Source: a virus. From it: a stretch of 20,316 bases of DNA. The stretch spans positions 1 through 20,316 of the IMG/VR virus record IMGVR_UViG_3300032240_000149, one strand, 5' to 3'. The notes beneath the pieces are model-generated. The model saw only the letters and a list, made by a program, of their open reading frames with translations, was not told the DNA's origin and searched no databases. The position numbers were made by a program, and so were the translations under genes. Within the stretch, counting starts at the first letter, position 1. Each line of letters opens with the position of its first letter. Of the stretch, positions 1 to 17,974 are shown piece after piece.

Positions 1-309
1 ACCATTACAAAATACTTCAAATGTATTTGGTTTAATGCCACGAATTACTTTGTATTGTTTTTTGCCAATAGAAAACTCAATCTCAACCACACCTTGTTGT
101 TGATTGATGGAGTTTAATAGATTGGGCTTATTGATTTTACGAAATGGTTTACCAAACAAACCAAAGCACAAGGCATCCAACATAGTAGATTTACCCGCAC
201 CATTATTACCAATAACAAGTGTGTTTGGTGATTTGGTTAAGTCAAGTTCAGTAAAACTATTACCCGTAGAAAGTATATTCTTCCAACGGAGTTTTTGAAA
301 TATAATCAT
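1..309 (-). CDS. 46: gp46, recombination endonuclease ATPase subunit (partial, N-terminus only)
   Basis: This is the first 103 codons of a gene running off the left edge. The protein begins MIIFQKLRWKNIL and carries a Walker A motif GNNGAGKST at about residues 35-43, followed by LDALCFGLFGK. This is the N-terminal ABC/SMC-type ATPase half seen in Rad50, SbcC and T4 gp46. In T4, gp46 pairs with gp47 to resect double-strand ends for recombination-dependent replication and to help degrade host DNA. The start ATG overlaps the stop of the upstream cysteine-rich gene as ATGA, so translation is probably coupled. The coiled coils, zinc hook and C-terminal ATPase half lie outside the window. The partner gp47 lies one gene upstream, which supports the assignment. 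Confidence 0.93.
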   Translation of the reverse strand, partial: MIIFQKLRWKNILSTGNSFTELDLTKSPNTLVIGNNGAGKSTMLDALCFGLFGKPFRKINKPNLLNSINQQQGVVEIEFSIGKKQYKVIRGIKPNTFEVFCNG

Positions 310-575
310 TTACAATAAGTTTCTTTACATTTAACACAAGAAATATCCAATATTTTAACAACCTCCCAAATAGGAGTATTATCTGGTATTTCTAAATGTT
401 CACAACATTTATCTTTACAATTAAAGCAGTCTACGTTTCCATTTGCATCATAAACACATCTGGTAGTCTCACTACAAAACATTCCAGTTTCTCTATTAGG
501 AAAGCTTCGACAACAATTAAATCTAAACTCATATATTGAGCAAAGTTTATTTTCATCTAGATATGGACAAATCAT
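306..575 (-). CDS. Small cysteine-rich YkgJ-like putative metal-chelating protein between gp47 and gp46
   Basis: This 89-residue protein has 13 cysteines, at positions 3, 12, 21, 22, 34, 40, 50, 53, 57, 58, 80, 83 and 88. Residues 1-27 (CPYLDENKLCSIYEFRFNCC then RSFP) resemble the central block of the YkgJ / CxxCxxCC family of putative zinc- or iron-chelating proteins, which typically reads CPFL, C, IYE, RP, CR, P. The family's usual N-terminal cysteine block is absent, so this looks like a shortened relative. C50, C53, C57 and C58 form another tight cluster (CFNCKDKCC), and CVKC follows near the end. Both ends overlap the neighbours as ATGA (gp47 stop with this start, this stop with the gp46 start), so it is translated together with the gp47/gp46 nuclease pair. 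Metal or Fe-S binding is likely; any role with gp46/47 is inference. Confidence 0.8.
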   Translation of the reverse strand: MICPYLDENKLCSIYEFRFNCCRSFPNRETGMFCSETTRCVYDANGNVDCFNCKDKCCEHLEIPDNTPIWEVVKILDISCVKCKETYCK

Positions 576-2649: not shown

Positions 2650-4123
2650 TTTTTAGTCCTATCTTATAGATTTTATATGGGAACTGTTCATCATTATATA
2701 TCTTAGTTCTTTCCACGAAATGTTTTAAAGTATAATTCATATGTTTTTTATATCTAAGGTCATCAGAAATATCATATAGAGTTGCTATTTCTTTGCCTTC
2801 ATTTTGCCTAAGGCCTCTACCAATACTCTGTAATGTTCTAATTGTAGATTTAGTTGGCATTGCAAATATGATATTATGCAAATTACGAATATTGATTCCA
2901 GTACTAAAAGTACCATAAGAGGCCACCACGATTGCATCATTTTCTATTTCCATAATTTTTCTAATTTCTTCACGGTCTGTAGTGTCAGTTCCACCATGAA
3001 CAAAAAATACCTTTCTGCTGCCTATCTTTTCTGTGTTTCTTATGATATCATACAGGATTTGACCATGTTTGTCAACCATTTGATATAACACCAAAGTATT
3101 TTTACCTAGGCTAACTGCAAGATTTTTAATGAATTTATTTCTGGCTTCATTTGAAATTAGATATTGAATTTCTTCTTGGTAAGTTTTATCTTTTAACTCT
3201 AAACATTTTTCATCTGCATGTTTTAATACTAAACATTTAATTTCAAAATCTGAAACTTGTTTTTTATCAATCAATTCTTTTGTACTAATAACTTTATTTA
3301 TTTTGCCAAATAGTCCTTCTAATACTAACTTGTGTGTTTTCGTTCCATCCAACGTTCCAGTAAGTCCTATGCGGTATTTGGCATTAATACAAGAAGTGAG
3401 TATTGTTGTTAATGATTGTGCTTTGAATAGATGGGCTTCGTCACCTATTACATAATCAAATTGATGAAAATATTCTTTAGGCATCTTATACAATGATTGC
3501 CATGTGGAAATTGTTAAAGGAAGGCTTGACTCTTTTTCTTTTCCTTGATATATTCTATGTACTAAAGATTGCATTGAATCGTTAGCATAATCTTCAAAGT
3601 CTGTATATAATTGTTCTACCAAAGAAGTAGTTGGAACAATTATAAGACCTTTTAGTTTTTGATATTCTAAGAGTTGTCTAAAGATGAGATAGATGATGAG
3701 GGATTTTCCCGAAGCGGTTGGAGACAGGAGTAAAGCTCTTCGGTTTTGCATTGCGTGAATATAGGCAGAGAGTTGGTGTTCCCTGACTTCAATTCGTTGT
3801 CCACGAGAATGTGGACTAATTTGTGATATAAATTTGTTCGCATGGTAAACTGAGTATTCGTCTTGTACAAAATCGTGGTGCCAAGTATAGTTTCTTTCTT
3901 GGCAGAATTCTTCTATGTATGGTAATAAACCAATATATATTTGATTACTTCTTAAATCAAAAAGTCTTATCTTTCCATCCCAAATTTTATTCCTATAAGC
4001 AGGAACAAAAGTATAACCAGGAACAAAAAATGTAAAAAACTCCGATAACTCTTTAGCTATATGTTTTTCACATTCAACTTTTAAGTATACCTCATTGACT
4101 TTAGAAATGTTTATTTCACTCAT
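2642..4123 (-). CDS. uvsW: UvsW, SF2 DNA/RNA helicase
   Basis: This 493-residue superfamily 2 helicase is the phage counterpart of RecG-like branch-migration enzymes. Motifs in order: an N-terminal substrate-binding region ending in REHQLSAY near 114-121 (Q-motif-like), Walker A SPTASGKS at 134-141, the DEAH box at 228-231, motif III GLTGT at 253-257, and motif VI QSIGRGLRQ at 432-440. In T4, UvsW unwinds R-loops, shutting off origin-dependent replication, and regresses forks to promote recombination-dependent replication. It is somewhat shorter than T4 UvsW (587 aa); the C-terminal small accessory part appears reduced. The start overlaps the preceding gene's stop by 8 nt, and the stop overlaps the next start by 8 nt. 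The neighbours uvsY, gp46 and gp47 fit the same pathway. Confidence 0.94.
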   Translation of the reverse strand: MSEINISKVNEVYLKVECEKHIAKELSEFFTFFVPGYTFVPAYRNKIWDGKIRLFDLRSNQIYIGLLPYIEEFCQERNYTWHHDFVQDEYSVYHANKFISQISPHSRGQRIEVREHQLSAYIHAMQNRRALLLSPTASGKSLIIYLIFRQLLEYQKLKGLIIVPTTSLVEQLYTDFEDYANDSMQSLVHRIYQGKEKESSLPLTISTWQSLYKMPKEYFHQFDYVIGDEAHLFKAQSLTTILTSCINAKYRIGLTGTLDGTKTHKLVLEGLFGKINKVISTKELIDKKQVSDFEIKCLVLKHADEKCLELKDKTYQEEIQYLISNEARNKFIKNLAVSLGKNTLVLYQMVDKHGQILYDIIRNTEKIGSRKVFFVHGGTDTTDREEIRKIMEIENDAIVVASYGTFSTGINIRNLHNIIFAMPTKSTIRTLQSIGRGLRQNEGKEIATLYDISDDLRYKKHMNYTLKHFVERTKIYNDEQFPYKIYKIGLKNV

Positions 4124-4742
4124 ACATTACCGTATTTGTGTTTCCTAAAGACCATTTGGCATCTGTTTCAACTGACCATTTATTTGTAGCCACATGAAAA
4201 TCTGGAATTTTTAATTCTTTTGGATTACTACTTGGCTCTAAAATAATTAAACGATTATTTGGCTGAGCAGCAAACTGCCCATTATCACACATAATGAAAT
4301 TATAAGACTTGTGGTCCTCGACATCTTCAGAAAATCCTGTATCAAGTATGTTAAAATCAGGATGTGCAGAATCAACTGTAAAAAGATAAACACCATACAT
4401 CCAATCTCCATTTTTTAATTTAAATTTACATCTCATTGATTGTAATTGAGATTTCTTTAAAACTGTTATATCATAAGATAAACAATCCCATAACTGAAGA
4501 TAATCTAATGGTAGTGGTTCACCTTCAATAGGCTTCCAACAGTATGCGTGTAAAGGTAGTTTATCATAAAGAGCACCATAGTTATTTAAATAAGATTCAA
4601 TTCTAAATGCTTGACCTCTTAATGATTTGATAGTTATCCACCAACAAGGTTCAAGTTCTTTGTGTCCTTTTTTAAAGTCATAAAGGAATTCTTTACGAAT
4701 AAAACATTTAACTGGTGGAAGATTTGCAATAATATGTGCCAT
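4116..4742 (-). CDS. Conserved phage protein of unknown function between uvsY and uvsW
   Basis: This 208-residue protein starts MAHIIANLPPVKCFIRKEFL. The ATG at 4742 overlaps the uvsY stop as TAATG, which is why I prefer it to the in-frame ATG at 4769 that would add nine residues within uvsY. Visible segments include EPCWWITIKSLRGQAFRIES, YGALYDKLPLHAYCWKP, LQLWDCLSYDI and DNGQFAAQPNNRL. From memory this pattern recurs in cyanophage-type T4-like genomes beside uvsW, always as hypothetical. It has no signal peptide, membrane segment or catalytic motif that I recognise, and is rich in aromatic residues. Its place inside the uvsY-uvsW overlap chain suggests a replication or recombination role, but this is only guilt by association. 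Confidence 0.85.
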   Translation of the reverse strand: MAHIIANLPPVKCFIRKEFLYDFKKGHKELEPCWWITIKSLRGQAFRIESYLNNYGALYDKLPLHAYCWKPIEGEPLPLDYLQLWDCLSYDITVLKKSQLQSMRCKFKLKNGDWMYGVYLFTVDSAHPDFNILDTGFSEDVEDHKSYNFIMCDNGQFAAQPNNRLIILEPSSNPKELKIPDFHVATNKWSVETDAKWSLGNTNTVMYE

Positions 4743-5176
4743 TATTGACCGCCAATAAATTTTTCCCATGATATAAAATCACGTAGCTGCCATGTTCTTT
4801 GTTTTAATTCATTCATAATAGATTCAATCACAGACACCACTTCTTCATGATAAGATTTCTTTTCCAATAGTCTAATTAAATCTTCATCTGCTTCCAAATA
4901 AGCATTCACATCCGATTTAAGAACGAATTGAAATGGCTCCCATCCGTGCATCAATAGTTCTTCTTTACTTAGGCGACCTCCATAATAGTCAATCTTAACT
5001 TTACGCATACGTAGATAATTAAAATGAGACTTTTTGGAAGCCATTTTATGTTTGACCAAGATGGTCAAGTATTTGTTGTGGAGTTTTGGAATCTTTAACA
5101 GTTCTTTACCAGGTTCTGTCTGGTCCATGTCTGCGTCAGATTTCCATGATTCTAATATTTGTTCTAAAGTTTCCAT
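4742..5176 (-). CDS. uvsY: UvsY, recombination mediator protein
   Basis: This 144-residue protein matches T4 UvsY (137 aa) in length and in conserved segments. KVKIDYYGGRLSKEEL corresponds to the ARLDYYSGR region; FVLKSDVNAYLEADEDLIRL corresponds to the VLSADKDVLKVD region; the basic C-terminal helix ends LRDFISWEKFIGG. In T4, UvsY is a ring-forming mediator that loads the recombinase UvsX onto single-stranded DNA covered by gp32. UvsX itself is not in the window. It is the first gene after an almost perfect sigma70-type promoter (5208-5237) and the head of the overlapping run uvsY, unknown gene, uvsW, Sm-like gene. No good Shine-Dalgarno precedes its ATG, and the stop overlaps the next start as TAATG. 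Confidence 0.92.
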   Translation of the reverse strand: METLEQILESWKSDADMDQTEPGKELLKIPKLHNKYLTILVKHKMASKKSHFNYLRMRKVKIDYYGGRLSKEELLMHGWEPFQFVLKSDVNAYLEADEDLIRLLEKKSYHEEVVSVIESIMNELKQRTWQLRDFISWEKFIGGQ

Positions 5177-5207: not shown

Positions 5208-5237
5208 ATTATAACATGACCTATGTTATCGTGTCAA
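5208..5237 (-). promoter_or_regulatory. Consensus sigma70-type promoter for the uvsY cluster
   Basis: On the minus strand, TTGACA (5237-5232) and TATAAT (5213-5208) are both perfect consensus hexamers separated by 18 bp. The start point would be near 5201, about 25 nt before the uvsY ATG. The -35 box overlaps the TGA stop of the upstream radical SAM gene. It differs from the late-type motifs, so this cluster is probably expressed early or in the middle period by host sigma70 polymerase. Timing is inference. Confidence 0.85.
5211..5229. repeat. Inverted repeat inside the uvsY promoter spacer
   Basis: The arms ATAACAT (5211-5217) and ATGTTAT (5223-5229) are perfect 7-bp inverted repeats around a 5-bp centre. 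They fill the spacer between the -35 and -10 boxes, with one arm partly overlapping the -10. This is the position expected of a repressor operator, but chance in AT-rich DNA cannot be excluded. Confidence 0.5.
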
Positions 5238-6244
5238 GGCGTAAGATAGTCATTTCTGTATTGTTCATAATATACATTAAATTTTCCACAATTCTTTTTA
5301 CAAACTTTTAATGGTGAAGTGGTCCATGTTTTTTCTATTTTATCAAAATACCCACTATCAAATATTTCAGATAATTTTTGTTTTTTTAAATTTGGCCAAA
5401 CACCTATAAGGTCCATATAATCAACTCTTGATAAATCAGTATGGCAATCATGTTCTATGTTTGTCCAACAACAAGGGTTAACTGTTCCTGTGGCACTTAT
5501 ATAAATTTGATTGGTTTTTTTAACCATACAATTAATAGTTGGTAATTGTTCTTGTTGTTCTTTTTGTTTTATAATTTTACCAATCATACCTTCACTTTTT
5601 TTTGTTGGGTATATAATATTGATTGGAGTTCCTTCATCATTTAAAACCTTTAACATACCAGTTGAATCAAATCGATTGGTATGTTTTGATTCAAATCTAA
5701 CAAATCCCAATTGCCGGCTTAATTTTTCACAATCATCTACTTGATGTTCATTGTGTTTAAAAACAAGCATTTCCCAATGTGCTTGACCACCAGATTTAAT
5801 AAAAGTTTTGGCGTTTTCAATAACTTTTTCCCAGTTGGTTCCAATTCTGTAAATGGAATGTGTATCACTTAATCCATCAAGAGCAAAATAAACATTAACA
5901 CCAAGTTTAGCTAAATCTGTCCACCATTGTGAGTTTCTTGCACTACCATTGGTGGACATATTTAATATTAAATTGTTGTTTGTTTCTCTTAAATATTTAA
6001 ATATTTCTAAAGTATCTTTAGCAATTATAGGATCTCCTAACCTACCACACATAGAAATATTGGTAAGTTGTTTAATAAAATCTGAAGAAAACCATTCTTT
6101 AAATTGTACTAAAGTGATTTCATCCAATTCAATATGCGGCCTAAGTTTACCTCCATGCCAGTTACGAGCACATTGTGGACATTTAGCTTGACATTTGGAA
6201 GTAGTTTCTAGATGCAATGATTTTATGTCTGATAATTTATACAT
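5234..6244 (-). CDS. Radical SAM protein with SPASM/twitch-like C-terminus
   Basis: This 336-residue protein has the radical SAM signature CxxxCxxC at C18, C22 and C25 (TSKCQAKCPQCAR), expected to bind the 4Fe-4S cluster that cleaves S-adenosylmethionine. A GRLGDP at 67-72 resembles the GGEP-type SAM-contact motif, and NMSTNGS and VYFALDGLSDTHSIYR fit later barrel strands. The C-terminal part has C239, C258-C259 (NPCCW), C267, C315 and C319 (CKKNC), which could bind an auxiliary cluster as in SPASM or twitch proteins. That group mostly modifies peptides or proteins, but the substrate here is unknown. It lies between a virion gene and the uvsY promoter, 14 nt after the preceding stop, with no clear Shine-Dalgarno. 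No precursor peptide gene is apparent beside it. It is not part of the T4 core; similar radical SAM genes have been reported in aquatic phages. Confidence 0.88.
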   Translation of the reverse strand: MYKLSDIKSLHLETTSKCQAKCPQCARNWHGGKLRPHIELDEITLVQFKEWFSSDFIKQLTNISMCGRLGDPIIAKDTLEIFKYLRETNNNLILNMSTNGSARNSQWWTDLAKLGVNVYFALDGLSDTHSIYRIGTNWEKVIENAKTFIKSGGQAHWEMLVFKHNEHQVDDCEKLSRQLGFVRFESKHTNRFDSTGMLKVLNDEGTPINIIYPTKKSEGMIGKIIKQKEQQEQLPTINCMVKKTNQIYISATGTVNPCCWTNIEHDCHTDLSRVDYMDLIGVWPNLKKQKLSEIFDSGYFDKIEKTWTTSPLKVCKKNCGKFNVYYEQYRNDYLTP

Positions 6245-6258
6245 AATATATTGTTATA

Positions 6259-6786
6259 TTAAGCTGATGTAAATTCAAAGTAATCGTAATTAAAAGATGC
6301 ACTAGCGGTAAGAATCTGATTTGCGTCAGATTTGGTATCAAATTGAATATCGGATAATGTTAAAGGAAAGGCATTATAATAGGTAATTCTTTTTAATGGA
6401 TTATTTAATGCTGAAAGAATTGTTAAAGTGGCATTAGAATAACTTTTAGAACTGGTTGTTCTTTTACTTTGTACTTCAGACAATCTATTTCTTTCTTCAA
6501 ATCCTGCTGGAGAACCCATTGCTTTAAACCAATTATAAATTTCTTGCCAACCAATTAAACCTTCATCTATTGTAAACGATACAGCAAGGTTATTGTAGGT
6601 TAATTTATTGCCAGGTGCATATATGTCCAACATTGGAGTATTAATAGGAGCTTGTCCCATCGAAACACCAGGTAAATTTACCTCTTGGCAAAAATATTGA
6701 ACAGTAGGCATCCTGTCAAAGCTTAAAAGAAACTTTGACGGTTGTAAATAATTAATATTTTGAGGGGCTCTTGTAAGTACAGTCAT
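6259..6786 (-). CDS. gp19-family (tail-tube-like) virion protein, second copy
   Basis: This 175-residue protein has the layout of the T4 gp19 tail-tube family and its relatives. It has an N-terminal phrase NYLQPSKFLLSFDRMPTVQY, then VNLPGVSMGQAP, PGNKLTYNNLAVSFTIDEGL, a YNWFKAMGSP loop and a terminal beta region LTLSDIQFDTKSDANQ. A separate and more typical gp19 lies at 12659-13207, so this is a paralogue. The LPG and NxLxVSFTIDE pattern is shared by tube, tail-terminator and baseplate tube-initiator proteins of contractile tails, so it could form a specialised ring rather than the tube itself. It follows gp23 after a terminator. A CCTAAATA element lies so close to the ATG that a late transcript would start at or beside the start codon. 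No Shine-Dalgarno is visible. Confidence 0.78.
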   Translation of the reverse strand: MTVLTRAPQNINYLQPSKFLLSFDRMPTVQYFCQEVNLPGVSMGQAPINTPMLDIYAPGNKLTYNNLAVSFTIDEGLIGWQEIYNWFKAMGSPAGFEERNRLSEVQSKRTTSSKSYSNATLTILSALNNPLKRITYYNAFPLTLSDIQFDTKSDANQILTASASFNYDYFEFTSA

Positions 6787-6803: not shown

Positions 6804-6831
6804 AAAAAAAGAGACCTCCGAAGAGGTCTCT
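6804..6831 (-). terminator. Intrinsic terminator after gp23 (UUCG loop)
   Basis: On the minus strand the stem GAGACCTC / GAGGTCTC closes a TTCG tetraloop (cUUCGg type). It is extended by one more pair and followed by seven T. It lies 28 nt after the gp23 stop and is a textbook Rho-independent terminator. Confidence 0.93.
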
Positions 6832-6858: not shown

Positions 6859-8184
6859 TTACATCAAGTTCTTAACGCCAAACAAACGGTAATAAACGTT
6901 AGTACGAGGATCTAATGTACCTGTACCAGCAGTTAAACCTTTTGCAAATGGGTTAGCAACCATACCGTAACGAGTTTTGAAACCAATCTTAGGTTGGAAT
7001 GTAAACTGGTCAACAGCACGAACCATTTGGAGAGGAACGTATGGGCAATAGAAAATACCAGCATCATATGGTGAAGAACCTTTATAACCGATAGTTACGA
7101 GTTCTTGATTAGCAGTATAACCACCAAAATATGGGTCGATATAAACTTTGATACGGCCATGTAACAAACCAGCAAATGTATTACCTGTATCATCTACTTG
7201 TAAGTCAGATTGAAGAGCAGGAGTATAAGATAATACACCAGCCATTGCCATAGCAGAAGCAACGTCAGAAGAAACGATTAATACGTTACCTTTACCTCTA
7301 CGAGTTTGTTTTGCAATTACGTTAGCATCACGTTCAATTTGGAAAATCAAACCTTTGAAACGCTCAACAGACCAACGACCGTTTGAGTCTGTATCTAAGT
7401 CAAAGTAACCAGCAGTAGTTGTACCATACTGAGCACCAGCAACAGCACAAGTATAGATTGTACGAATAACTTCACGGTTAATTTCAGCCAAAATTTCAGT
7501 AGACAGAATGTTAGACAATTCTGTTTCAGCGTCAAGACCATGAATTGCCTTCAAGTCTTGTGCTAATTCTAATGAATACTCAGCTTTGAGAGCACGGGAT
7601 TGAGCAGTTACAGTAACTTTGTCAATCGTAAATGCCATCTGTTGGAAAGCAGCACCAGATTCAGAACCTAACAACTCAGCGTTAGCTGTTGGGAATGCAA
7701 TACCAGAAGTAGTTGCACCAGAAGTTACGTTTTGGAATGTGTTTGCAGTATCAGTTGTTAATGTACCTTGAAAACCGTATGGGTTATTGGTAGATTTAGC
7801 ACCTGAGAATACTGTGTTTGCTTCATTGTAGAAAGCTTCAGCACCAGATTGATTCTCGTAACGAGCACGCATTGCAAAAATTAAACCTGTAGGACCAGTC
7901 ATTGGTTGAACACCAGCAACGTCATAAGCGATTAAGTTAGGCAAAGCACGGCGTACTAAAGAAATCAAGATTGGGTCAAAGTTCTGAACACCACCAGCAA
8001 TGTTTGTAGGACCAGTATCAGTTAAAGTTTCGTTTAACTGTTGACGGTCTTGAGCCATAGCTTGACGTTGATTTTCAAGAATGACAGTTGTAACTGCACG
8101 CTTGTACGGGTCTTTAATTGGTTCTAATTCTGGATGATCCAGAACTGGAGACCAAGCTTTTGATAATTCTTCTGTTAAATACAT
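6859..8184 (-). CDS. 23: gp23, major capsid protein precursor
   Basis: This 441-residue HK97-fold capsid protein is recognised by LISLVRRALPNLIAYDVAGV followed by QPMTGPTG, which is highly conserved in T4-like gp23. T4 gp23 is 521 aa, so this is the shorter form common in aquatic relatives. The prohead protease gp21 cuts after (L/I)xE; QLNE ending at residue 52, followed by TLTDTGPTN, is the best candidate cleavage site, leaving a mature protein of about 389 residues (inference). It has a strong Shine-Dalgarno (AAGGAGA), a late-type AATAAATA upstream and a terminator downstream. Codon use differs from its neighbours, with many AAC, TTC, GAC and CGT codons, as expected of the most abundant virion protein. 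Confidence 0.97.
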   Translation of the reverse strand: MYLTEELSKAWSPVLDHPELEPIKDPYKRAVTTVILENQRQAMAQDRQQLNETLTDTGPTNIAGGVQNFDPILISLVRRALPNLIAYDVAGVQPMTGPTGLIFAMRARYENQSGAEAFYNEANTVFSGAKSTNNPYGFQGTLTTDTANTFQNVTSGATTSGIAFPTANAELLGSESGAAFQQMAFTIDKVTVTAQSRALKAEYSLELAQDLKAIHGLDAETELSNILSTEILAEINREVIRTIYTCAVAGAQYGTTTAGYFDLDTDSNGRWSVERFKGLIFQIERDANVIAKQTRRGKGNVLIVSSDVASAMAMAGVLSYTPALQSDLQVDDTGNTFAGLLHGRIKVYIDPYFGGYTANQELVTIGYKGSSPYDAGIFYCPYVPLQMVRAVDQFTFQPKIGFKTRYGMVANPFAKGLTAGTGTLDPRTNVYYRLFGVKNLM

Positions 8185-10196: not shown

Positions 10197-10739
10197 CTAT
10201 GGAGTAATTTTATATGTACCGTAGTTAAATGCAGCTGGATCATTAAACTGACCACGCTGGTAATACTCATTTTCTTTTCTTACTTCCATAACGATAGTAT
10301 AACTTGCATTAGCTAATTGTCCACGGGAACAAATGGCAATATCACCATTGTTGTAACTTGTTTTTGTTGGATTTTTGATTGTAATCCAATTTCCATTTCC
10401 ATCATACTCACCATTACCTTGCATAAACAATATTGGAACGCCAGAATTTGCTAAAGCACTTGCTGTATTTGCCCAATATAGTTGAATATCACCAGTTGCA
10501 GTATCAGAATCATACCAAACACGGTGAATTGTTAAACCATAATAAGGTTTTGCTGTGTTACTAACGCTTAAAGATGAACCTAAAGGTACATTATTTGCAT
10601 CTAAAGCTCCATATAAAGTATTGGCAGCAATTCGTGATACATTATTTTCTTGGCCAGAACCATCAAACTCACCAGTTAATTTGATGATTGCGTGTTGAGT
10701 ATCGTCCTTTAAAACTTGATATGAATATTTATTTGCCAT
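10197..10739 (-). CDS. Putative virion protein of unknown function at the gp68 position
   Basis: This 180-residue protein is predicted to be mostly beta. It starts MANKYSYQVLKDDTQHAIIK and includes GLTIHRVWYDSDTATGDIQL, PILFMQGNGEYDGNGNWITI and GDIAICSRGQLANASYTIVM, ending YKITP. I recall similar proteins in marine phages of several tail types, annotated as structural or hypothetical, but I do not recognise a named T4 protein. T4 has gp68 (a helical core protein) here, and this does not look like it. It has its own late-type octamer (GATAAATA) and an AGGATA ribosome site. Together with its place among head genes, this suggests a capsid-associated or decoration protein. That role is inference. 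Confidence 0.8.
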   Translation of the reverse strand: MANKYSYQVLKDDTQHAIIKLTGEFDGSGQENNVSRIAANTLYGALDANNVPLGSSLSVSNTAKPYYGLTIHRVWYDSDTATGDIQLYWANTASALANSGVPILFMQGNGEYDGNGNWITIKNPTKTSYNNGDIAICSRGQLANASYTIVMEVRKENEYYQRGQFNDPAAFNYGTYKITP

Positions 10740-17188: not shown

Positions 17189-17196
17189 AATTTATA
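17189..17196 (-). promoter_or_regulatory. Probable late promoter before gp16 (TATAAATT)
   Basis: One mismatch to TATAAATA, in the last base. It overlaps the TAA stop of the fibre-like gene and is 17-24 nt upstream of the gp16 ATG. Confidence 0.5.
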
Positions 17197-17974
17197 CTAC
17201 TTCGCTTCCGCTAATGAACCATGTGTTTGATGCAACTTGAATTAGTGTGGCCACACCATATGTAGTAACATTTCTTGATGCGCTTGATGTATTACCTGCA
17301 AGATACATTGTTACACCTGTGTTTGGTGATACAGTTATGTTAGCATTTGACGATGTTCTAGAAACAATCATAATCGTTGTACCATTAGAAAATGCCACAT
17401 TAGATGTTGTGGGAATATACAATATTACATTTGATGATTGCGTGTAGTAAATATGTTTACCAGCATCAGACAATTGTAAAACATAATTTGTTGTTTGAGC
17501 ATTTTGTGGAACGGTTTGAGCTGAAGTGTTTGCTTGTGTAAATGCAGCTTGCGCTAATATATTGGCTGAATTTGCTTTACTAAATGCAGTTTGTGCCAAA
17601 ACATTGGCTGAATTGGCACTATCGAATGCAGTTTGTGCTAGGACATTGGCTGAATTGGCCTTATCAAATGCAGTTTGTGCTAGAACATTGGCTGAATTGG
17701 CCTTATCAGATGCAGATTGTGATAAAATATTGGCTGAATTGGCCTTATCAGATGCAGATTGTGATAAAATATTGGCTGAATTGGCTGTAGTTAAAGCCAA
17801 ATTTGATGCAGCTCTAGCATAAACATCTAGTATTGCGCCAAATCCTCCAGCAGTTACTCCGTCATGAACAGTTATGGATCTATTTGTTATATCAATAATT
17901 ATCTCACCGTTTGCACCAGTTGTATTGGCAATCGCAGCTGCCCCATATCTTTTAAATTGAATTATTCTAGACAT
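17192..17974 (-). CDS. Small fibre-like virion protein with 14-residue repeats, between gp15 and gp16
   Basis: This 260-residue protein has three parts. Residues 1-50 (IIQFKRYGAAA, GANGEIIIDITNRSITVHDG) resemble the short N-terminal domain of many phage tail fibres (GEI, then DG; Mtd-like). Residues 61-152 are six to seven 14-residue repeats of the type KANSANVLAQTAFD, two heptads long and Ala/Asn-rich, as in trimeric coiled-coil fibre shafts. Residues 165-260 are a beta-rich tip (NGTTIMIVSRTSSNANITVS, then a GVATLIQVASNTWFISG ending) of a type I recall in aquatic phage structural proteins. The start is 1 nt from the gp15 stop with AGGAT upstream. T4 has no gene here. It is likely a small head or neck fibre, or a receptor-binding whisker; which one is unknown. 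Confidence 0.82.
   Translation of the reverse strand: MSRIIQFKRYGAAAIANTTGANGEIIIDITNRSITVHDGVTAGGFGAILDVYARAASNLALTTANSANILSQSASDKANSANILSQSASDKANSANVLAQTAFDKANSANVLAQTAFDSANSANVLAQTAFSKANSANILAQAAFTQANTSAQTVPQNAQTTNYVLQLSDAGKHIYYTQSSNVILYIPTTSNVAFSNGTTIMIVSRTSSNANITVSPNTGVTMYLAGNTSSASRNVTTYGVATLIQVASNTWFISGSEVV
17523..17816 (-). repeat. 42-bp in-frame tandem repeat array
   Basis: Seven contiguous 42-bp units: 17523-17564 (degenerate), 17565-17606, 17607-17648, 17649-17690, 17691-17732, 17733-17774 and 17775-17816 (degenerate). The units at 17691-17732 and 17733-17774 are identical over all 42 bases, indicating a recent duplication; the others drift. Each unit encodes 14 residues, so copy-number change keeps the frame and alters shaft length by two heptads. 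Confidence 0.95.

Follow-up and report, generated by a model that had tools for sequence, protein, structure and literature searches.

Phages of marine origin and phages of Campylobacter have repeatedly been found to carry about a dozen radical SAM genes, to which no function has been assigned. Campylobacter phages CP220 and CPt10 encode 11 and 12 of them, respectively, in exchangeable modules (PMC2853527), a T4-like TARA genome contains 12 (PMC5332604), and the host recognition clusters of pelagimyophages (PMP-B) have acquired radical SAM cassettes that lie among glycosyltransferase and tail-fibre genes (PMC7029224). None of these three papers attaches a tested function to the radical SAM genes. 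CP220 and CPt10 resemble the phage described here in being T4-related myophages with radical SAM genes, which there occur in runs, and CP220 has sugar-transferase-like genes near them. The PMP-B and TARA phages are marine and T4-like and carry radical SAM genes as exchangeable cassettes; these genes likely belong to the same families as the multi-gene loci described below.

Here we analyse a stretch of viral DNA of 20,316 nucleotides (IMG/VR record IMGVR_UViG_3300032240_000149; hereafter the window). It covers part of the genome of a marine T4-like phage with a bacterial host, and its major capsid protein, gp23, is 62-65% identical to those of Methylophilales phage Melnitz and of the pelagiphages HTVC008M and Mosig.

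Results

A single radical SAM gene between a tail gene and uvsY

The window has one copy of a radical SAM gene, with an intact reading frame (Table 1). Its upstream neighbour is a gp3-like gene, syntenic with the tail completion protein gene of HTVC008M. The stop codon of the gp3-like gene and the start of the radical SAM gene are separated by 14 bp; downstream, 57 bp of intergenic DNA lead to uvsY. An earlier reading of the DNA letters alone (the sequence-only reading) had described the gene as wedged between virion and recombination genes and as foreign to the T4 core. Both descriptions hold, since the two sides are the phrog_45 gp3-like gene and UvsY, and the same slot is empty of a radical SAM gene in Melnitz, HTVC008M and Mosig. 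The spot between gp23 and gp3 is a cargo hotspot, and HTVC008M has endonuclease V as cargo in the same region.

The gene had also been placed just before the uvsY promoter, which agrees with a -35 box (5237-5232) that overlaps the radical SAM stop codon; read at sequence level, this predicted promoter is real. Further, a putative terminator sets gp23 apart from the gp3/radical SAM pair and, because it precedes gp3, the radical SAM gene may or may not be co-expressed with gp23. The T4 late promoter TATAAATA has one match in the whole window, located elsewhere, and no good late promoter is visible for the radical SAM gene; late co-expression of this gene with the virion genes is at most a possibility.

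Table 1. Coordinates of the radical SAM gene, its neighbours and predicted transcription signals in the window
Feature	Coordinates	Strand	Basis
Radical SAM / twitch-type enzyme, 336 aa	5234..6244	-	Pfam, 31-sequence alignment, AF2, VIA
gp3-like tail protein	6259..6786	-	phrog_45 (tail tube type) 1.1e-34, Phage_T4_gp19 2.2e-5
UvsY recombination mediator, downstream neighbour	4742..5176	-	PF11056 9e-23
Major capsid protein gp23, context	6859..8184	-	PF07068 2.4e-142; 65% to Melnitz
Predicted sigma-70-type uvsY promoter, TTGACA - 18 bp - TATAAT	5208..5237	-	read from sequence; kept in sibling L027
Predicted intrinsic terminator after gp23, GAGACCTC-TTCG-GAGGTCTC-T7	6804..6830	-	read from sequence

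Other genes of the window were observed along the way. Between gp67 and gp21, positions 10197-10739 (minus strand) encode a 180-aa protein that matches nothing in Pfam or PHROG and shares only 38% identity with its equivalent in sibling L002, the flanking genes being 95-99% identical; on sequence comparison it appears to be a hypervariable or replaced virion-region gene. The 217-aa protein encoded at 4116-4769 (minus strand), between uvsY and uvsW, matches PHROG 3704 'ferredoxin' (1.1e-78), with no Pfam match and no visible ferredoxin cysteine pattern, and its gene is absent from L002. A 260-aa protein (17192-17974, minus strand) contains tandem 'TAFDKANSANVLAQ'-type repeats and is probably a fibre or whisker-type virion protein, and an 89-aa cysteine-rich protein (306-575, minus strand), with a sub-threshold match to a CxxCxxCC chelating domain, overlaps the gp47 gene. 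In L002 (4786-7432), DctP, TctC solute-binding and Asp/Asn hydroxylase-like genes lie between gp23 and gp3; these are absent from the window.

The gene product is a twitch-type radical SAM enzyme

Two Pfam models score above their cut-offs on the protein, Radical_SAM (PF04055; 39 bits against 29.5, E = 1.2e-9) and SPASM (PF13186; 23 bits against 21.5, E = 9.8e-5). Its cysteines are at positions 18, 22, 25, 66, 172, 239, 258, 259, 267, 315 and 319. The first three form a CxxxCxxC motif, found in 1 of the 93 stop-to-stop frames of at least 50 aa in the window, that of the radical SAM gene, and the whole arrangement CxxxCxxC ... Cx9-15Gx4C ... Cx2-3C appeared in none of 20,000 shuffles of the protein. 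Among 31 aligned relatives C18, C22, C25, C258, C315 and C319 are invariant, C239, C259 and C66 are near-invariant, and C267 is not conserved. C66 belongs to a family-specific CGxLGDP motif, in the position that GGE(P) occupies in most radical SAM enzymes.

A full SPASM domain has seven cysteines, Cx9-15Gx4C-gap-Cx2Cx5Cx3C-gap-C, and two auxiliary clusters, while the twitch domain, of BtrN type, has Cx9-15Gx4C and then a further cysteine pair, with one auxiliary cluster. The C-terminal pattern of the window protein is C239-x13-G253-x4-C258 ... C315-xxx-C319, plus C259; that is, the first element and a later cysteine pair without the full SPASM set. The sequence-only reading had listed six C-terminal cysteines and proposed a SPASM/twitch enzyme. 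All six positions are correct, but the conserved set shrinks to C239/C258/C315/C319 (with C259), C267 falling out; and of the proposed class the one-cluster twitch pattern stands, while the seven-cysteine SPASM set does not, with 4-5 conserved C-terminal cysteines. We therefore rejected full SPASM membership, although the Pfam SPASM score exceeds its cut-off. The arrangement of C239, C258, C315 and C319 fits one fully ligated auxiliary cluster, which we infer the protein would bind. That the gene product is a twitch-type radical SAM enzyme we hold with high confidence.

More specific family models were rejected for the protein. N_Twi_rSAM (NF033640) reached 49.5 bits against 170, in the core region only, and the tungsten oxidoreductase maturase model TIGR04317 49.5 bits against 380. 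Housekeeping MoaA (27.3 against 284), PqqE (19 against 381) and the heme enzyme AhbD (28.3 against 500) were dismissed as well, and in these HMM scores no housekeeping radical SAM family model comes near its cut-off.

The predicted fold does not name the substrate

The AlphaFold2 model, built with 31 sequences, has a mean pLDDT of 92.1 and a pTM of 0.90. Sequence and predicted fold together describe a TIM-barrel radical SAM core with the CxxxCxxC motif, followed by a C-terminal auxiliary-cluster-type domain. Compared by VIA-align, the model resembles SuiB (Z 19.2), SkfB (18.5), BlsE (18.1), anSME (17.7), MoaA (17.5), PqqE (16.4), DesII (16.4), BtrN (15.1), viperins (about 15) and SpeY (11.8). 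The resemblance of a confident model (pLDDT 92) to SPASM/twitch enzymes at Z 15-19 bears out the enzyme class that had been anticipated from the letters; with C18/C22/C25, PF04055 above its cut-off and Z up to 19, this is a genuine radical SAM enzyme. BlsE ranked first in Foldseek and was also the best PDB match in a sequence-profile search (4.5e-7). Since peptide enzymes and sugar or small-molecule enzymes are tied, with Z within about 1, the fold does not name the substrate. Residue 1 of the model aligns at residue 102 of SuiB and residue 99 of SkfB, and the N-terminal leader-binding (RRE) domain is therefore missing. Some RiPP radical SAM enzymes also have no leader-binding domain, so this absence is not exclusive.

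Relatives reside in multi-radical-SAM clusters of marine phages

Scans of viral contigs recovered at least 455 relatives. The family (c0) is large, occurs on marine viral contigs and was previously uncharacterised; the window protein is a member by sequence, being 50-63% identical over its full length to cluster-borne c0 copies, and in the annotated phage collection it has only distant matches. Gene context was counted with local profiles on fetched loci, using 85 family genes with 3 kb on both sides. In these 85 loci, which were not dereplicated and count some contigs twice, another radical SAM gene lies within 4 kb in 82 and a methyltransferase-fold gene (c2) in 81. After dereplication to 42 loci, the gene immediately upstream is c1 in 22 and c2 in 7, mostly in overlapping frames; 23 loci have c2 directly downstream and 7 have c3, mostly with small overlaps. 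The usual setting is thus an overlapping-frame operon on a marine viral contig, T4-like where the contig has a capsid gene: gp23 was present on 6 of 22 records tested, including the multi-radical-SAM records G002, G012 and G013, and the remaining records are fragments without the capsid region.

Among the partners, c1 is a second radical SAM gene, whose best-scoring model is prokaryotic viperin (39-56 bits against 180), and c3 is a true N_Twi_rSAM (N-terminal twitch; 327 bits against 170). Neither Pfam nor the PDB profile search gave a match of note for c2, whose model (pLDDT 90.4) resembles class I methyltransferases with Z 16.7. Sub-threshold GT2 matches (E 0.007-0.07) were obtained for c4, in which a DxD is invariant and for which the PDB profile search returned no match. 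Asp_Arg_Hydrox (Asp/Asn-hydroxylase-like) is matched by c5 and c6, in some cases above cut-off, and a PP-loop ATPase-like gene, c13, is present in some clusters. The clusters have no universal small ORF, and their frames overlap. Several of them adjoin tail-fibre-like genes, and in L004-type loci the cluster comes after a gene with a near-threshold match to Peptidase_G2, a tail-fibre-type domain.

The viral record of L017 (G002:C1:16551-53399), a 169-kb T4-like contig, packs 15 radical SAM genes into about 37 kb, and other viral contigs have 12-13. Some clusters also include genes named from sequence appearance as hydroxymethylbilane synthase-like (c22), PLP aminotransferase-like (c21) and nucleotide-sugar dehydrogenase-like (c16, c19), with examples at L074:10376-10873 and in the L084/L088 clusters. 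The scan of bacterial genomes for relatives gave two MAG contigs. L025 (PBDY01000027.1), filed as a Gammaproteobacteria MAG, resembles T4-like phage DNA; because its assembly contains gp23, phage DNA has probably been binned here as part of a MAG.

The window copy stands alone

Nearly all relatives sit in multi-radical-SAM clusters and the window copy is alone. Only two lineages have no radical SAM partners: one comprises the window, L001 and L002/L027, and the other comprises L083/L087/L092/L119 and adjoins a DNA ligase-like gene. No c1 or c2 partner was found around the orphan copies in their loci, nor on a 114-kb sibling contig (G001). By Pfam search this contig, which may be incomplete, has exactly one radical SAM gene; it gave no partner-profile match, the c2 profile search was empty, and it includes the tail-fibre/host-recognition region, between a VrlC-like gene and gp14.

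The window copy nests among cluster-borne copies with support 100/98, and the branch to the orphan lineage is long (0.6). This nesting is most simply explained by an escape from a cluster, and we consider it quite probable that the gene belongs to the multi-radical-SAM phage family and escaped from one of its clusters. The frame is open in the window and in two further contigs, and comparison of the window gene with its sibling over 335 codons shows 4 synonymous and 2 non-synonymous changes, a small sample.

Discussion

Proposed function and alternatives

Judging from the chemistry known for radical SAM enzymes, C18/C22/C25 would bind a [4Fe-4S] cluster that cleaves SAM to give a 5'-deoxyadenosyl radical. 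This radical would abstract a hydrogen from a substrate bound between the barrel and a second, auxiliary [4Fe-4S] cluster at C239/C258/C315/C319; the latter would accept the electron. The gene most likely left a cluster and then inserted alone between gp3 and uvsY. Its product may tailor a saccharide-type substrate, for example by oxidising a nucleotide sugar or a glycan located on a surface or linked to the virion, and in the window lineage such a substrate would have to be available without the cluster partners. We lean to a saccharide because the protein is similar to BlsE and has no leader-binding domain, because some partners of its relatives are weakly glycosyltransferase-like, and because of what has been published on host recognition clusters. 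With the fold scores tied, the glycan reading rests on neighbours in other phages; against it, the glycosyltransferase call for c4 is sub-threshold with no PDB match, and the orphan copies work, or persist, without glycosyltransferase-like neighbours. For the statement as a whole, namely that a twitch-type enzyme left a cluster and tailors a saccharide-type substrate, we estimate a probability of about 40%.

A protein target, the idea of the sequence-only reading, is nearly as likely as a glycan or sugar target: the enzyme might modify gp3, gp23, a tail fibre or a host protein in the manner of anSME, which acts on folded or nascent targets without a leader peptide. anSME, itself without a leader-binding domain, ranks high in the fold comparison (Z 17.7), the window gene is in the virion block 14 bp after gp3, and the clusters of its relatives hold Asp/Asn-hydroxylase-like and methyltransferase genes and adjoin the near-threshold Peptidase_G2 gene. 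However, most relatives do not adjoin gp3, gp23 or uvsY, and no conserved substrate motif was identified. Adjacency to virion genes is weak evidence of a protein target, because the region takes unrelated cargo in related phages and because nearly all relatives sit in clusters elsewhere.

It is unlikely that the enzyme matures a RiPP for which the host, or another part of the phage genome, supplies the precursor peptide. The fold comparison places SuiB and SkfB first, and the combination of radical SAM, methyltransferase and hydroxylase genes around relatives recalls heavily modified RiPP pathways; on the other hand, the window protein has no N-terminal leader-binding domain, NCBIfam RiPP maturase scores are far below their cut-offs, and the overlapping frames of the clusters include no universal small ORF. 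A precursor beside the gene was rejected for want of room, the gaps to the gp3-like gene and uvsY being just 14 and 57 bp, as the sequence-only reading had rightly seen.

We also think it improbable that the enzyme is viperin-like or base-modifying and yields an antiviral-type or hypermodified nucleotide, directed against the host or competing phages or protecting the phage DNA. The fold similarity to viperins, the preference of c1 for prokaryotic viperin, the PP-loop ATPase-like c13 and the DNA ligase-like gene beside the second orphan lineage are consistent with it, but all c1 viperin scores are far below the cut-off and the viperin model is absent among the matches listed for the window protein. 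A viperin-like identity was rejected as unsupported for the window protein and is weakly supported for c1; to our knowledge, viperins have no auxiliary-cluster domain of this kind. Finally, a dispensable passenger, recently transferred and with no current role in the window phage, would agree with the absence of the gene from this slot in cultured relatives and with the long branch, but seems improbable for a protein with all catalytic and auxiliary cysteines kept, an open frame in three contigs and the few, mostly synonymous, codon changes given above.

Beyond the preferred reading of a saccharide-tailoring enzyme, a broader and more speculative proposal, which we think rather unlikely as a whole, is that the radical SAM pairs, methyltransferase, Asp/Asn-type hydroxylases and glycosyltransferase-like genes form an unrecognised tailoring system of T4-like marine phages, diversifying tail fibres, virion proteins or surface glycans against receptor or surface defences, with the window phage keeping a stand-alone enzyme for a virion or host substrate. 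Should the enzyme turn out to modify virions or surfaces, phages would have a new means of changing the features that hosts or defence systems recognise. The orphan copy narrows the question to one enzyme in one phage and may be a simple handle on the cluster products: since its substrate must exist in the infected cell without the cluster partners, expression of this single gene could name the chemistry.

Comparison with known systems

Phages with 11-12 radical SAM genes have already been reported, and the kind is therefore known. The PMP-B and TARA papers (PMC7029224, PMC5332604) give annotation only, with no family definition, partner set or gp3-uvsY orphan, and as far as searchable papers show, neither the family as defined here nor its operon partners nor the orphan copy has been described. 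A CP220 protein is the best annotated-phage match of the window protein (27% identity over 76%). Besides this low identity, CP220 and CPt10 differ in having 11 and 12 radical SAM genes and an amidinotransferase, whereas the window lineage has one radical SAM gene in another place.

Among characterised enzymes, SuiB, SkfB and anSME show the highest fold similarity (Z 17.7-19.2), but they are full SPASM enzymes and the window protein is of twitch type; SuiB and SkfB, in addition, have the leader-binding domain that it does not. BlsE (cytosylglucuronate decarboxylase, a sugar-nucleoside enzyme; PDB 7vob) aligns over 263 residues, although with 15% identity and another genomic context, and its model TIGR04466 is not among the matches of the window protein. 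BtrN and SpeY, which act on aminocyclitols in antibiotic pathways, resemble it in having one auxiliary-cluster domain and a similar number of cysteines, but are only 18% and 11% identical, respectively, and space the last cysteine pair differently (CxxxC in the window protein). The only clearly bacterial relative is encoded on plasmid pNF1 of Nocardia farcinica (WP_041561526; full length, 30% identity, 2e-54). Like the c0 clusters, it adjoins a second radical SAM gene and class I methyltransferases; unlike the window gene, it belongs to a bacterial plasmid operon with phosphoketolase, HAD hydrolase and enolase-superfamily genes.
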